Assembly (NCBI GenBank): GCA_030682135.1
Contig: JAUXQT010000043.1
Coordinates: 41,473 to 105,472, forward strand
From: Nitrospirota bacterium
GTDB lineage: Bacteria > Nitrospirota > Nitrospiria > Nitrospirales > Nitrospiraceae
Direction: 5' to 3'
Length of the DNA stretch: 64,000 nt
Shown: positions 30,214 through 49,794 of the stretch, one piece after another
Numbering within the stretch: position 1 is the stretch's first letter
Layout of the letters: each line of letters starts with the position of its first letter
Notes under the pieces: model-generated
The model's database searches: none
Told to the model about the DNA's origin: nothing
The model's input: the letters and a program-made list of their open reading frames with translations, nothing else
Position numbers and translations under genes: made by a program

Positions 30214-31287
30214 CTAGTTCAAGTTTCGCAGGATCGCCTCGCCCATTTCCGTCGTACTGACAAGACGGGTCCCCTGGCTATGAATATCTTTGGTGCGATA
30301 TCCGAGTTCGAGGGTTTTCACGATCGCCTGTTCGATGGCTGCCGCTTCCTGATCCAACTTGAACCCATACGACAACATCATGGCCGCCGAAGCAATCGTC
30401 GCGATGGGATTCGCCACATTCTTTCCGGCAATGTCCGGGGCGCTGCCGTGAATCGGTTCGAACAGCCCGACCTGCGCACCGATACTGGCCGACGGCAACA
30501 TGCCGATGGAGCCTGTTAACATGGCCGCTTCATCGCTCAGAATATCGCCGAAGATATTATTACAGAGCATCACATCGAACTGACGCGGGTTGCGGACGAG
30601 TTGCATCGCGGCATTGTCGACATAGATATGGCTCAGCTCCACATCCTGATACCCCTTATGGGTCTCGATGACGACTCGGCGCCAGAGTTCGGACGACTCC
30701 AGCACGTTCGCTTTGTCGACGGACATTACCTTGCTCCGACGCTTTCTCGCCGCTTCGAACGCCACTTTCGCGATGCGCGCGATTTCTTCAGTCGTATAGA
30801 CCTCGGTGTTGAACCCTCGCTCGCTCCCGTTCGGCAGCTTCTCGATGCCTTTCGGCTTCCCGAAATAAATGCCGCCCGTCAGCTCCCGGATGACGAGGAT
30901 GTCGATGCCCTCGATGACCTCGCGTTTGAGCGTAGAGGCATCGGCCAACATCGGGTACAACTTCGCCGGCCGCAAGTTCGCATAGAGGCCGAGGTGCTCC
31001 CGCAAACCCAGCAGCGCGCGTTCCGGCCGCAAACTGTACTCCAGCCCTTCCCACTTGGGGCCGCCGACTGCGCCGAGCAAGACGGCATCGCTCTGTTTGG
31101 CCAGGGTCAACGTCTCCTGTGGAAGCGGGACGCCGACTTTATCGATGGCCTGGCCACCGACATCACCGGACACGAACTCGAATTGGTGATTGAACTTCTC
31201 GGCTATGGTCTTCAACACCTTCACGGCTTCGGGCACAATCTCTCGGCCTACTCCATCGCCAGCTAATACCGCAATCTTCGCCTTCAC
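30214..31287 (-). CDS. leuB: 3-isopropylmalate dehydrogenase
   Basis: [61 protein letters not shown]. Confidence 0.98.
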
Positions 31288-31328: not shown

Positions 31329-31712
31329 CTATTCCAGAACTTCTTCATCCTCTGCCCGCCAAGCGGGATCGACCATGCAAAGAAACTCGATGGCAGTGGG
31401 CCCACTATTCTCCAGAGACTGCTTGCCTCCTGGAGGCACATAGACGACGGAGCCTGGCTCCACCACGACAACCGAGGTATCTATGGTCAATCGGCCACGC
31501 CCCGCAATAATATAATAGACCTCTGCAGACGTCAGCCTGTGCCACTTCGACCGAGCGCCGGGAGCCAAGGTCCCATGGGCTAGGCTATATCCAAGTGAGA
31601 GCGACTGCTTCGCCGGATGCAGGAGCTCACGGAGGACGGTGTGATCACCGGCGAGAAACTCCGGCCGATCCTCCAGGGTGACATGAACCACCGCGCACCT
31701 CACAGCCAACAA
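31329..31712 (-). CDS. Cupin domain protein
   Basis: [34 protein letters not shown]...[22 protein letters not shown]. Confidence 0.88.
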
Positions 31713-31763: not shown

Positions 31764-33311
31764 CTAAATCAAGCTTACTTTATGCTCGCCTTGCGCCTGC
31801 TTTCCCGCCAAATACAATAGCTTGTTCAACGCGTTGAGGTAGGCACGGGCTGACGCCATGATGATGTCTGTATCCGCGCCATGGCCCGATACGGTGCGCC
31901 CATCCTCTTGAACCTTGACCGAGACTTCGCCCTGAGCATCGGTCCCCCCCGTAATCGCTTTCACGACATACATGAGGAGCGTGCTCTTCGTCTGCGTGAT
32001 CGCGGCAATGGTTCGGTAAACCGCGTCCACTGGCCCATCGCCGGTCCCGGTCTGCGAGATCGTTCGTCCGTCGATCTCAAGCTCAACCGTCGCAGTCGGC
32101 ACTTGATCCGTTCCGCTGGCCACATGGAACGACTTCAAGGTGATCCGATCGGCCATTTTGACCAACTCTTCGGAGACAATCACTTCGAGGTCCTCTTCGT
32201 AGATCTCCTTCTTCTGGTCGGCCAGCTTCTTGAAGCGCTCGAACGCGTGGTTCACCTCTTCGTCCGAGAGCGTATAACCTAGCTCGACCAGTCTCTGGCG
32301 AAACGCATGCCGTCCCGAAAGCTTCCCCATGACCATCTTGCCCTCGACCAGCCCGATCGTCTCCGGCTTCATGATTTCATAGGTCGTCTTGTCCTTCAGC
32401 AGCCCATCCTGGTGAATGCCGGACGTATGGGCAAAGGCATTCGCCCCCACAATTGCTTTGTTCGGCTGCACCACCATGCCAGTAATCTTACTGACCAATC
32501 GGCTGGTCTTCGAGATCTCTTCGGTGCGGATCCTCGTGTCGGCTTGATAGAAATCTTTCCTGGTCCGAAGTCCCATGACAATTTCTTCCAATGCCGTGTT
32601 CCCCGCTCGCTCACCGATTCCATTGATCGTACACTCAACTTGGCCGGCCCCTTCGAACACCGCCGCCAAGCTGTTTCCCACGGCAAGTCCAAGGTCGTTG
32701 TGGCAATGGACCGAAATCACCGCCTTCGCACTGTTTGGCACCTGCTCGCGAATGCCACGAATGAGCCTGCCGAATTCTTGTGGCACCGCGTAACCAACCG
32801 TATCGGGAATATTGATCGTCCCAGCTCCTGCGGCAATCACCGCTTCAATGACCTCATAGAGATAGGCGGGATCGGAGCGACTGGCATCCATGGGCGAAAA
32901 CTCCACATCGTCGACATAGCCCCTCGCCCGTTGCACCATCTCGACCGCGCGCTTCTTCGCCTCATCGCGCGTCATGCGGAACTGATGCTTCAAGTGGATA
33001 TCCGAAGTCGAGAGAAACGTGTGGATGCGGACCTTCGGGGCCCCCTTCAATGCCTCCCAGGCCCGATCGATATCCTCCGGGCGTGCCCGCGCCAAGCTAC
33101 AAATCGTGGGTCCCTCGACCTCCTGTGCAATTCGCCGCACCGCCTCAAAATCACCGGGCGAACTATAGGCAAATCCTGCTTCGATGATATCGACCCCTAA
33201 CCGCGCCAGCTGCTTCGCCACCATGATCTTCTCTTCAACATTCATGCTGGCGCCAGGAGATTGCTCTCCATCGCGCAAGGTCGTATCGAAAATTTTGATC
33301 ATCCTGGTCAT
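31764..33311 (-). CDS. leuA: 2-isopropylmalate synthase
   Basis: [68 protein letters not shown]. Confidence 0.98.
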
Positions 33312-33333
33312 GACTTCACCTCTCTTATCTGAT

Positions 33334-33450
33334 GAGATTGCTCAAAATGCTTTTCCCGCAGGACGCGGGACGACTGGGGCGTACCCGTAGGGCACGTCGC
33401 AGGGAGGCACGCGACCGAGAACGCAGCGGGAAAGCATTTTCAGCAATCTC
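33334..33450. repeat. Palindromic dispersed repeat, copy 1
   Basis: Arms 33334-33359 (GAGATTGCTCAAAATGCTTTTCCCGC) and 33426-33450 (GCGGGAAAGCATTTTCAGCAATCTC), near-perfect inverted repeat; core CGTACCCGTAGGGCACG. Confidence 0.85.
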
Positions 33451-33454
33451 AAAT

Positions 33455-33712
33455 GAAAAAGCCTCCATCCCTCAGCCCAGGGACGGAGGCTTGAGAAGCT
33501 CCGTGGTACCACCCTGATTTAGCCATGAACAACGTGCTCGCTGCTCACGGCCCTTCATTGCGCCCGATCACGGGGGCGAAACGGAATCCATTACTCGGGT
33601 TTCACGGACTCTGGCTCGGAGGCGAGTTCGGCGCCGCACAGGCTGGTTTGCACCATTCACCAGCTCTCTCGATGCTATGCGAATCGCGTACTACTCCTCG
33701 TCGCAGCCACGA
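33455..33712 (-). promoter_or_regulatory. T-box leader (Leu, specifier CUC) with intrinsic terminator, controlling leuA
   Basis: Minus strand: GAGGAGTAGTACG; AGAGAGCTGG...CCAGC stem; GAACTCGCCTCCGAGCC (specifier CTC at 33624-33626); T-box AGGGTGGTACCACGG at 33501-33515; terminator AAGCCTCCGTCCC...GGGATGGAGGCTTTTTC at 33456-33492. Confidence 0.96.
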
Positions 33713-33722
33713 ACAATTGACT

Positions 33723-34514
33723 TCAGACTGACTGCTCGGTCTTGGCCGGCAAGCGCTTCCCGGACATTTTTGCGACAAGCCCAACGAGCCGTTCTGCCGG
33801 ACCGAGCAAGGCATACCCGGCAAATATGACAAATAACATGACCGGGGGCCAGGCGGCGACGAGCATGAGCGCGAGAATCCCCCACACGAGATACGTAATG
33901 TGCCGCCCCCCGCGAAACTTCAGATCTTTGAAGCTTCGATACTTAATGGTGCTGACCATCAAGAATGAAAGGGTCAGCGTCACAATCAGGACAAGCAACG
34001 GCTTCACTTCCGTACCAATCCTGACGCTATAGTGATCGAAAATCACGAGTGAGGCCACGACCCCTGCGGCCGCAGGAATGGCAAGTCCGGTAAAATACTT
34101 GCCGTCCGACGTGGCCACCGTCGAATTAAATCGGGCCAACCGAACCGCACCCATCGCGACATATGCAAACATCACCGCAATACCAAATGTCCCCTGCCCA
34201 CTCAACGCCCAAGAATAAATCAAGAGGCCTGGGGCGACTCCGAACGACACCACATCTGACAACGAGTCGTATTCGAGACCGAAATGACTGGTGCTATTCG
34301 TTAACCGCGCTGACTTTCCGTCAAGCACGTCGAAGATCATTGCCACCAGAATGGCGACGGCTGCAACCATGTAGTTCGCATTGAATACCGACAATATCGC
34401 AAAGACGCCGCAGAGCAGATTCCCTGTCGTAAACAGATTCGGAATCAGATGCATGGCGGCCTTACGCCGTTTCCCATCTCTGCCGAACGATTGACGCAGC
34501 GCGGTAGTTTTCAT
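33723..34514 (-). CDS. pssA: CDP-diacylglycerol-serine O-phosphatidyltransferase
   Basis: HLIPNLFTTGNLLCGVFAI; DVLDGKSARLTNSTSHFGLEYDSLSD CDP-alcohol motif; start 34514 overlapping psd stop. Confidence 0.96.
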   Translation of the reverse strand: MKTTALRQSFGRDGKRRKAAMHLIPNLFTTGNLLCGVFAILSVFNANYMVAAVAILVAMIFDVLDGKSARLTNSTSHFGLEYDSLSDVVSFGVAPGLLIYSWALSGQGTFGIAVMFAYVAMGAVRLARFNSTVATSDGKYFTGLAIPAAAGVVASLVIFDHYSVRIGTEVKPLLVLIVTLTLSFLMVSTIKYRSFKDLKFRGGRHITYLVWGILALMLVAAWPPVMLFVIFAGYALLGPAERLVGLVAKMSGKRLPAKTEQSV

Positions 34515-35161
34515 GGCAATTCCCCCAAGATGGTTTCTCCACCTTTGACTCGATCGCCCACTGCAACTCTCAGAACCGTCCCGAGAGGAAGAAACGTATC
34601 CATTCGAGACCCGAATCGAATCAGCCCAAACCGCTCGCCGAGTATGGCCCGATCCCCGGCTGAAATCCAACAGACAATCCGCCTGGCGATTAATCCGGCC
34701 ACCTGCACACAGAGCACCTTCGCGCCCTGAGTCGTCCGAATCATCAAGGCATTTTGCTCGTTCCGCAACGTTGCATCGGGTCTGCTGGCCACGAGAAACA
34801 AACCCGGCTGATACTGCACCTCCTCGACAACCCCTTCACAGGGAATCCGATTGATATGCACATCGAATACGTTCAAGAAGATGGTGACTCGGATGCTGCG
34901 ATCCTTGATGAATCGAGGCTCGAACTCCTCTTCGATGGCGATGACTTTCCCATCACCGGATGCCACGAGGAGACGAGGCCCTTGAGGTATCACTCGATGT
35001 GGATTGCGGAAAAACCAGGCGACGAAGAGCGTCAGGAGCGCCCCGCCGCCAGCCGCAATCATCCCACCCAGCCATCCTGCTAGCAGTGTAACGCCAACAG
35101 CAGCCCCGATGAAGGGAATTCCTTCTTTGGCAAACGGGATGCCGACGGCACGATCTGCCAC
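34511..35161 (-). CDS. psd: Phosphatidylserine decarboxylase proenzyme
   Basis: FLNVFDVHINRIPCEGVV; C-terminal RFGSRMDTFLP self-processing region. Confidence 0.95.
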   Translation of the reverse strand: MADRAVGIPFAKEGIPFIGAAVGVTLLAGWLGGMIAAGGGALLTLFVAWFFRNPHRVIPQGPRLLVASGDGKVIAIEEEFEPRFIKDRSIRVTIFLNVFDVHINRIPCEGVVEEVQYQPGLFLVASRPDATLRNEQNALMIRTTQGAKVLCVQVAGLIARRIVCWISAGDRAILGERFGLIRFGSRMDTFLPLGTVLRVAVGDRVKGGETILGELP

Positions 35162-35179: not shown

Positions 35180-36196
<1,017 letters not shown>

Positions 36197-36256: not shown

Positions 36257-36796
36257 CTATTCGCGGGCAACTTTTTTCGTCTGCAGGCTCGTCGAGCGAA
36301 TCGACTCACGGGCGACCGCGACCCGTCCGGTCCTGGTGAGCTCTTTGATGCCGAGTGGTTGCAGCAAGTTGATGATCGCTTCGATCTTGTGAGGATCTCC
36401 GGTTACTTCAATCGTATAGGTTGCCGGTGTGGAGTCGATGACATTGGCCCGAAAAATATCGGCGATCCGTAACGCTTCTGCGCGATCTTCCGGCCGCGTA
36501 TGCACTTTGATGAGCGCGGTCTCCCGCGAAACAAAATCGCTCTCATTCAAATCTACGACTTTGATGACATCGATCAGTTTATTGAGCTGTTTCACGATCT
36601 GTTCAATGATCCGATCGTCTCCGGACGTGACGATGGTCATCTGCGACATGGATGGATCGAGCGTCGGCGCGACAGAAAGACTTTCTATGTTGAACCCACG
36701 ACCGCTGAACAAACCGGCGACCCGAGACAGTGAGCCAAACTTATTCTCTACCGTTATCGAAATAATATGTTCCATACCCAATCTGTACTCCGACAC
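36257..36796 (-). CDS. ilvH: Acetolactate synthase small subunit
   Basis: ISITVENKFGSLSRVAGLFSGRGFNIESLSVAPT ACT domain; start probably 36772. Confidence 0.97.
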   Translation of the reverse strand: MSEYRLGMEHIISITVENKFGSLSRVAGLFSGRGFNIESLSVAPTLDPSMSQMTIVTSGDDRIIEQIVKQLNKLIDVIKVVDLNESDFVSRETALIKVHTRPEDRAEALRIADIFRANVIDSTPATYTIEVTGDPHKIEAIINLLQPLGIKELTRTGRVAVARESIRSTSLQTKKVARE

Positions 36797-36799
36797 CGT

Positions 36800-38575
36800 T
36801 TAGGCCGTGAGGATCGTGTCCGAATCCTTCGGCGTCACTTGCCCGGATCCTGCCTGCTTACTCTTCAAGGCTGGAGGATCTTCCAAGAGCATCTCATGAT
36901 TACAACCGCCCGCGGGGATCATCGGATAGACGTTCTCATATCGATACGTCGGCACATCGACGATCACCGGCTTATTCACGGCAATCGCTTCCTTCAAGAC
37001 ATCATCGATTTCAGAAGGCTTACTGGCCCGAAGACCGACAGCTCCGTATGCTTCTGCCAACTTCACAAAATCCGGCGTTGTCTCCAGATCGCTCGACGCA
37101 TACCGTCCTTCGTAAAAAAGATCCTGCCATTGACGGACCATTCCATGAAACCGGTTATTGAGCACGATAATCTTCACCGGCAACTTATGCACGACGGCCG
37201 TCGCCATTTCCTGCATATTCATCTGGATACTGCCGTCGCCAGCAATACAGAGAACCAACCGGCCTGGAAATGCCGCCTGCGCCCCCATGGCGGCAGGAAA
37301 CCCGAACCCCATGGTCCCAAGCCCCCCCGAGGTCAACCAGCGGTTCGGCTTGGCCAACTTAAAATACTGGGCGGCCCACATCTGATGTTGCCCCACGTCA
37401 GTCGACACAATCGGATCCAAATCTTTCGTCAGTTCATAGAGCCGCTTGATCACGTGCTGCGGCTTGGTCGGACCATCAGCGGCCTGTTGATAGGCAAGAG
37501 GATTGGCCTGTTGCCATTCGCGAAGCTGATTCCACCAGGGCTTGCGTAATTCGCGTTGATCGCCGTTTACCGTGGCACGAAGAATCTGGAGTAACTCGCG
37601 AAGCACGGTCTTACAATCGCCCACGATCGGGATATCGACATTCACATTCTTCCGAATCGAGGTCGGATCGATATCGATGTGGATGACCTTGGCATGCGGG
37701 CAAAACTCAGAAACCTTTCCCGTTACACGATCATCGAACCGCGCCCCAATGGCCACAACCAGATCGGAATAGTGCATCGCCATATTCGCACAATAGGTGC
37801 CATGCATGCCCAGCATGCCCAGGGACTGCGGATGTTCACCAGGGAAAGCCCCAAGTCCCATCAAGGTCATGTCGACCGGCATGTGGGTCAGCTCAGCCAA
37901 CTCCAGTAATTCTTGTGATGCACCCGAGAAGATGACACCGCCGCCGACGTACAGAATCGGCTTCTTCGCCTTCGTCATGGCCTCAGCCGCTTGCTTGATC
38001 TGCCACTTATTGCCTTCATACACCGGATTGTAGCTCCGAATGGAGACGGAGCTCGGATAGGTAAACTCCGCCTTATCCATCGATACATCTTTGGGAATAT
38101 CGACCAGCACCGGCCCTGGACGCCCTGTCGTCGCAATGTAGAAGGCTTCTTTGATCGTCGTCGCCAAATCGGCGACATTCTTCACGAGAAAATTGTACTT
38201 GGTGCAAGGACGGCTCAAGCCGATATTGTCCGCTTCCTGGAATGCGTCATTCCCAATCAGGCTCGTCGGCACTTGCCCGGTAAAACAAACCATCGGCACC
38301 GAATCCATGTAGGCATCAGCCAGCGCCGTGATGACATTGGTCATGCCAGGCCCTGAGGTCACAAGACAGACCCCGGCCTTACCGGTTGCCTTGGCATAAC
38401 CTTCTGCCATATGGCCCGCACCCTGTTCATGACGAGTGAGGACCACCTCAATATCTTTCTGCTGATGAAGCATGTCGAAAATCTTCAATACGACACCACC
38501 AGGAAGCGCAAAAACCGTTTTCACGCCTTCCCGCTTGAGGCATTCGATGAGGATTTCAGCACCTGTGAGCTTCAT
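36800..38575 (-). CDS. ilvB: Acetolactate synthase large subunit
   Basis: MKLTGAEILIECLKREGVKTVFALPGG; GDGSIQMNMQEMATAV TPP motif. Confidence 0.98.
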   Translation of the reverse strand: MKLTGAEILIECLKREGVKTVFALPGGVVLKIFDMLHQQKDIEVVLTRHEQGAGHMAEGYAKATGKAGVCLVTSGPGMTNVITALADAYMDSVPMVCFTGQVPTSLIGNDAFQEADNIGLSRPCTKYNFLVKNVADLATTIKEAFYIATTGRPGPVLVDIPKDVSMDKAEFTYPSSVSIRSYNPVYEGNKWQIKQAAEAMTKAKKPILYVGGGVIFSGASQELLELAELTHMPVDMTLMGLGAFPGEHPQSLGMLGMHGTYCANMAMHYSDLVVAIGARFDDRVTGKVSEFCPHAKVIHIDIDPTSIRKNVNVDIPIVGDCKTVLRELLQILRATVNGDQRELRKPWWNQLREWQQANPLAYQQAADGPTKPQHVIKRLYELTKDLDPIVSTDVGQHQMWAAQYFKLAKPNRWLTSGGLGTMGFGFPAAMGAQAAFPGRLVLCIAGDGSIQMNMQEMATAVVHKLPVKIIVLNNRFHGMVRQWQDLFYEGRYASSDLETTPDFVKLAEAYGAVGLRASKPSEIDDVLKEAIAVNKPVIVDVPTYRYENVYPMIPAGGCNHEMLLEDPPALKSKQAGSGQVTPKDSDTILTA

Positions 38576-38852
38576 GATAGAACCTCCATCCAACCCGCCG
38601 GTGAAAACCGAACGGAGGAATCGGCACGATAGGCGACGTTGCGGCTTATCCCAAATAGACCGGACCAGAATCCGACGATAACTCAGAACGTTCTGAAAAA
38701 TCAGGGATAAAGATCTATGATCCTAGCATCACACATTTCATCGCGTCAATAGTGCGGCACGCCACGCCCACCGCTCGCTGACAGTCTCCCTCCTCTATGA
38801 TATTGTTCAAATCATCCAGCACACGCTGTTGGCCCTGAGTCGTCACTCCATG

Positions 38853-49658: not shown

Positions 49659-49669
49659 GTCGCTTTCTT

Positions 49670-49794
49670 GCAGGATGCTGAAAAAGTCCGCCAGCATCGT
49701 TCTCGCATCGTTCAGGGCCTCAACGTACCCTAAGGGTACGCCTCGACCCTTCACTCGCTGCGGCCTTGCTGGGCGGCCTTTTTGAGCATCCTGC
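49670..49794. repeat. Palindromic dispersed repeat, copy 2
   Basis: GCAGGATGCTGAAAAAGTCCGCCAGCA (49670-49696) vs TGCTGGGCGGCCTTTTTGAGCATCCTGC (49767-49794); core ACGTACCCTAAGGGTACGCC; homologous to copy 1 in opposite orientation. Confidence 0.85.

Follow-up and report, generated by a model that had tools for sequence, protein, structure and literature searches.

The window, by which we mean the whole 64,000-nucleotide stretch of DNA that was analyzed, carries a run of branched-chain amino acid and phospholipid genes on its minus strand. In the direction of transcription, the run comprises ilvB (acetolactate synthase large subunit; 36800..38593 as the listed open reading frame, with an ATG at about 38574; Pfam TPP_enzyme N, M, and C), ilvN (acetolactate synthase small subunit; 36257..36796; ALS_ss_C and ACT_AHAS_ss), ilvC (ketol-acid reductoisomerase; 35180..36193; KARI_N and KARI_C), psd (phosphatidylserine decarboxylase; 34511..35161; PS_Dcarbxylase), and pssA (CDP-alcohol phosphatidyltransferase; CDP-OH_P_transf). 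The coordinates of pssA, 33723..34670, are those of the longest open reading frame, and the true start probably lies downstream of 34670. These genes are followed by leuA (2-isopropylmalate synthase; 31764..33311; HMGL-like and LeuA_dimer), a cupin gene (31329-31712; Cupin_2), and leuB (3-isopropylmalate dehydrogenase; 30214..31287; Iso_dh). An ilv-psd-pssA-leu run on one strand had been proposed in the original prediction, which did not name the strand; Pfam domains confirmed ilvB, ilvN, ilvC, psd, pssA, leuA, and leuB, and all of the genes, as well as the element between pssA and leuA, are on the minus strand.

This element is a leucine T-box leader (33455..33713, minus strand), extending from Stem I to the U tract of a terminator. 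T-box switches are well known and are rarer outside Firmicutes. The leader matched the Rfam T-box model RF00230 over its full length (model positions 1-219 of 219) at 33713-33476 on the minus strand, with a score of 81.6 bits and an E value of 3e-18. Rfam's curated gathering threshold for RF00230 is 93; the T-box falls short of it and is therefore not reported when the window is scanned with Rfam defaults. The match begins 9 nt after the pssA stop codon (33725-33723), close to the predicted distance of about 10 nt, and leuA lies downstream of it. A genome-wide search found one T-box in the whole genome; a separate one serving the ilv genes was thereby excluded.

All of the parts of a T-box were located on the minus strand. 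Stem I (33613..33708), delimited using covariation in an alignment of 54 leaders from relatives, carries two conserved motifs of the tRNA elbow contact, AGAGA in the distal bulge and GGUG in the apical loop, both of which are invariant or nearly so in the sequences of this alignment. The specifier codon, placed using the RF00230 alignment and the relatives, is CUC (Leu) at 33624..33626, in the context GAA-CUC-GCC, and agrees with the downstream gene leuA. The T-box motif, AGGGTGGTACCACGG, was read from the sequence and the alignment at 33501..33515, and the UGGU bulge at 33511-33508 is complementary to the 3' end, ACCA, of tRNA-Leu(GAG). This tRNA is encoded by a single gene in the genome, and its 3' end, A73-CCA, fits the UGGU bulge. 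Folding and covariation placed an antiterminator helix at 33479..33515 (-14.8 kcal/mol) and an intrinsic terminator at 33459..33492, with a 14-bp stem (-27.1 kcal/mol) and a U tract running to 33455. The antiterminator and the terminator are mutually exclusive, with one strand common to both helices.

The 54-leader alignment was the base for counts of covariation. Double-sided changes were present in 34 of the 62 consensus pairs, and compensatory changes were located in Stem I, Stem II, the antiterminator, and the terminator. Pairing was retained in 97.3% of alignment cells for the structure combining Stem I and the antiterminator and in 95.8% of cells for the terminator; each value was above those of all 500 of 500 shuffled alignments and far above those of slid versions. 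The shared strand pairs with its antiterminator partner as GC (21 leaders), AU (19), and GU (14), and with its terminator partner as UA (22), CG (21), and UG (11). Covariation of one strand with both of its alternative partners is the signature of a real switch. Thus, the full leucine T-box that had been predicted in front of leuA from its CUC specifier, T-box motif, and competing terminator was borne out in each of these parts, and the RF00230 search that had been proposed as a check returned a match, though one below the gathering score.

We next turn to the distribution of the T-box. The source organism is a Nitrospira, with N. lenta among its nearest records, and the RF00230 search found the T-box in 138 of 147 genomes of its family and in all 109 of those of good quality. 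Less common as T-boxes may be outside Firmicutes, as had been remarked originally, they are therefore essentially universal in the family studied here. The score exceeded 93 in 58 of the 147 genomes (maximum, 114.9 bits); most copies thus fall under the Rfam cutoff, and routine annotation will miss them. Wherever the specifier was readable in relatives it encoded Leu, being CUC nearly throughout and CUG in three genomes. This variation in the third base, with the amino acid kept, was counted in favor of a leucine-specific T-box. The order ilvN-ilvC-psd-pssA-T-box-leuA was constant among family loci with a long enough contig. Three loci scored as T-box negative by a regular-expression search (L035, L100, and L236) all proved to contain one in the Rfam scan, while in two others (L042 and L058) the T-box is truly absent. 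The regular expression also returned a CCA specifier in several genera; this call was rejected, because the pattern had caught on an additional hairpin within the apical loop, and the true codon is CUC. This extra hairpin, of about 20 to 30 nt, occurs in the Stem I apical loop of six loci from several Nitrospiraceae genera (L041, L196, L200, L210, L211, and L221). It is flanked by the strands thought to contact the tRNA elbow and may represent a variant structure of the distal module. Separately, one genome (G017) has a second T-box (L204/L026; 96.7 bits) near the end of contig C132, with no adjoining leuA or pssA, possibly reflecting contamination or a different target gene.

Beyond the family, no T-box was detected in nine genomes of the sister family, which belongs to the same taxonomic order. 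T-boxes are present but scattered in other Nitrospirota; at seven such loci (L232-L238), leuA adjoins the T-box in every case, and pssA lies on the opposite side in six. On a leuA tree, the T-box trait was clustered yet patchy, with at least seven label changes, a count that is somewhat off owing to misses of the regular expression. This patchy spread may reflect an old element with losses, or transfer.

T-boxes in front of leuA were published in 2008-2009 for Geobacter sulfurreducens and Pelobacter carbinolicus (Wels 2008, PMC2494555), and that of Geobacter was predicted to read tRNA-Leu(GAG) (G. metallireducens genome, PMC2700814). The Nitrospira T-box shares with these its position before leuA and the predicted reading of tRNA-Leu(GAG), and it therefore belongs to a known kind. 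A Geobacter locus (L101) likewise has the order ilvC-psd-pssA-T-box-leuA, with a T-box of 117 bits; however, the host belongs to another phylum, and leuA is only about 59% identical. Compared with RF00230, which describes transcriptional T-boxes with Stems I, II, and III and an antiterminator, the Nitrospira copy is alike in its full-length match, specifier, distal loops, T-box motif, antiterminator, and terminator. It differs in being GC rich, in scoring under the curated cutoff, in its Nitrospirota host, and in its placement within an operon, with a coding sequence immediately before it. No published mention of T-boxes in Nitrospira or Nitrospirae was found in searchable papers.

The leader holds a further feature, one missing from the original prediction. 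Between the T-box terminator and the leuA Shine-Dalgarno sequence lies a copy of a dispersed palindromic repeat (33333..33453, minus strand), which scored 81.6 bits (E value, 1.3e-18) against a covariance model made from 23 of the genome's copies. Folded as RNA, this palindrome reaches -57.5 kcal/mol; the leuA Shine-Dalgarno sequence is outside it. A second copy is present in the window at 49668-49794, and the genome contains at least 150 copies (all 150 scored candidates matched; 2012 at first look). The repeat is about 120 to 129 nt long, with the consensus CTAGCAGGATGCTGAAAAAGTCCGCC...TTTTTGAGCATCCTG (genome copies L242-L271), and has no match to an Rfam family. An exact subpattern occurs 33 times in the genome and 0 times in a reversed control. 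Nine family genomes were sampled, and seven of them, the source genome among these, contained the subpattern, which was absent from all of 52 other Nitrospirota genomes. A literature search retrieved nothing specific on Nitrospira miniature inverted-repeat transposable elements (MITEs) or a named Nitrospira palindrome.

Several details of the palindrome copies were observed in passing. Of 30 copies checked, about half have a same-strand open frame that stops no more than about 15 nt from their left end, for which the TAG of CTAG often serves as the stop. Further short inserts are located at the hairpin tip in three copies (L244, L250, and L258), and a GCGCG hairpin lies near the right arm in four (L265, L266, L019, and L203). 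The positions of these inserts within the palindrome recur from copy to copy, as though its loop were a target for other small elements. At four loci (L214, L229, L230, and L231), a palindrome copy lies in the interval from pssA to the T-box and points the opposite way to the leuA-side copy. In these loci, about 150 extra nt separate pssA from the T-box, and these could provide room for a local promoter.

As to how the T-box is transcribed, the original prediction had offered two possibilities, an internal attenuator or a promoter inside pssA. A consensus scan predicted an operon promoter upstream of ilvB on the minus strand (38720..38749), consisting of TTGACG, an 18-nt spacer, and TGcTAGGAT. 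The hexamer, spacing, and extended -10 element (TGnTAGGAT, n being free) of this promoter are identical in 27 members of the genus, while the sequence further upstream is not conserved. Because the matrix used for scoring was derived from the ilvB promoters themselves, the score of the ilvB promoter is circular; its conservation is not. A leader of about 120 nt lies between this promoter and ilvB, promoter and leader together spanning 38570-38749 (minus strand). In most genus members Stem I starts at, or a few nucleotides past, the pssA stop codon. On this comparative evidence, with a conserved ilvB promoter but neither a conserved site like it nor extra synonymous constraint near the 3' end of pssA, we favor, with a probability of roughly 80%, the prediction that the T-box acts as an internal attenuator of one transcript running from ilvB to leuA. 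Of the two possibilities, the attenuator is thus preferred.

The competing explanation, in which a real T-box receives most of its transcription from a promoter of its own within pssA and leuA-leuB are separate from ilv-psd-pssA, draws on two observations. With a gap of 9 nt after pssA, any local promoter must sit inside pssA. In addition, three Geobacteraceae-like loci (L095, L104, and L106) have a leuA T-box with no pssA found adjoining it, indicating that an own promoter is workable. However, in the 600 nt upstream of the T-box in 27 genus loci, the best -35/-10 scores were at the level of shuffled sequence and at scattered positions, in a scan whose matrix, being built from ilvB sites, is blind to promoters of another type. 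The consensus scan likewise found no sigma-70-like site near the T-box on the minus strand, and synonymous identity over the last ~200 codons of pssA was flat, with no peak. The ilvB promoter, by contrast, is invariant in the 27 loci, and we consider a separate pssA promoter unlikely. The stretch from pssA to the T-box contains no strong terminator-like site, and the closest such site on the minus strand is a weak one of five pairs within pssA.

Two other explanations concern the function of the leader itself. The score below the Rfam gathering threshold might point to a degenerate T-box or a chance look-alike with no regulatory function, but the element is retained across the family with an intact motif and compensatory changes, and its specifier, discriminator base, and downstream gene function all fit together. 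The E value of 3e-18, the covariation, and the family-wide conservation rule out a chance match, and loss of function, to which we assign almost no weight, is on comparative sequence grounds already refuted for the family by covariation. The leuA leader is thus, judged from its sequence, a genuine leucine T-box of ordinary mechanism. Alternatively, and compatibly with the T-box model, leuA output might be set not by the T-box alone but also by the palindrome, which could, for instance, influence processing or stability of the readthrough transcript. In such a two-part leader, a T-box would be joined by a palindrome of fixed orientation that shapes the fate of readthrough RNA through processing, stability, or premature stopping. 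A copy is present between the T-box and leuA in 43 of 64 family loci, in the same orientation in all 43, and it is very stable as RNA. Nevertheless, many T-box-bearing relatives have no palindrome, with 72 to 107 nt from motif to start codon, so that it is dispensable for the switch; with at least 150 dispersed genomic copies, one old insertion could simply be inherited at the leuA site, and the Shine-Dalgarno sequence lies beyond it. Any role of the palindrome in the leuA leader is speculative, and we hold the two-part leader to be quite improbable. If it were true, a dispersed repeat family would have been recruited as a leader element.

Under the preferred internal attenuator model, RNA polymerase would start at the single promoter upstream of ilvB and transcribe ilvB-ilvN-ilvC-psd-pssA before reaching the T-box. 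When tRNA-Leu(GAG) is charged, the 14-bp terminator would form, and transcription would end before leuA. When it is uncharged, its anticodon would base-pair with the specifier, CUC, and its free 3' ACCA with UGGU, stabilizing the antiterminator and allowing the polymerase to continue into leuA and probably leuB. The leucine-specific genes would in this way be switched apart from the shared branched-chain and phospholipid genes upstream. Sequence and comparison show how the leader is built, its specificity for leucine, the alternative helices of the switch, and the conservation of the element, of its gene neighborhood, and of the promoter upstream; we infer the single transcript and charging-dependent readthrough.

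The placement of the T-box in the middle of an operon is mildly interesting. Lying between phospholipid genes and leuA, it would let one branch of an apparent shared operon respond alone. The Nitrospira family is a Gram-negative lineage that was not found in published T-box surveys, and these findings suggest that Nitrospira and its relatives stably retain control of leuA by a leucine T-box throughout the family.
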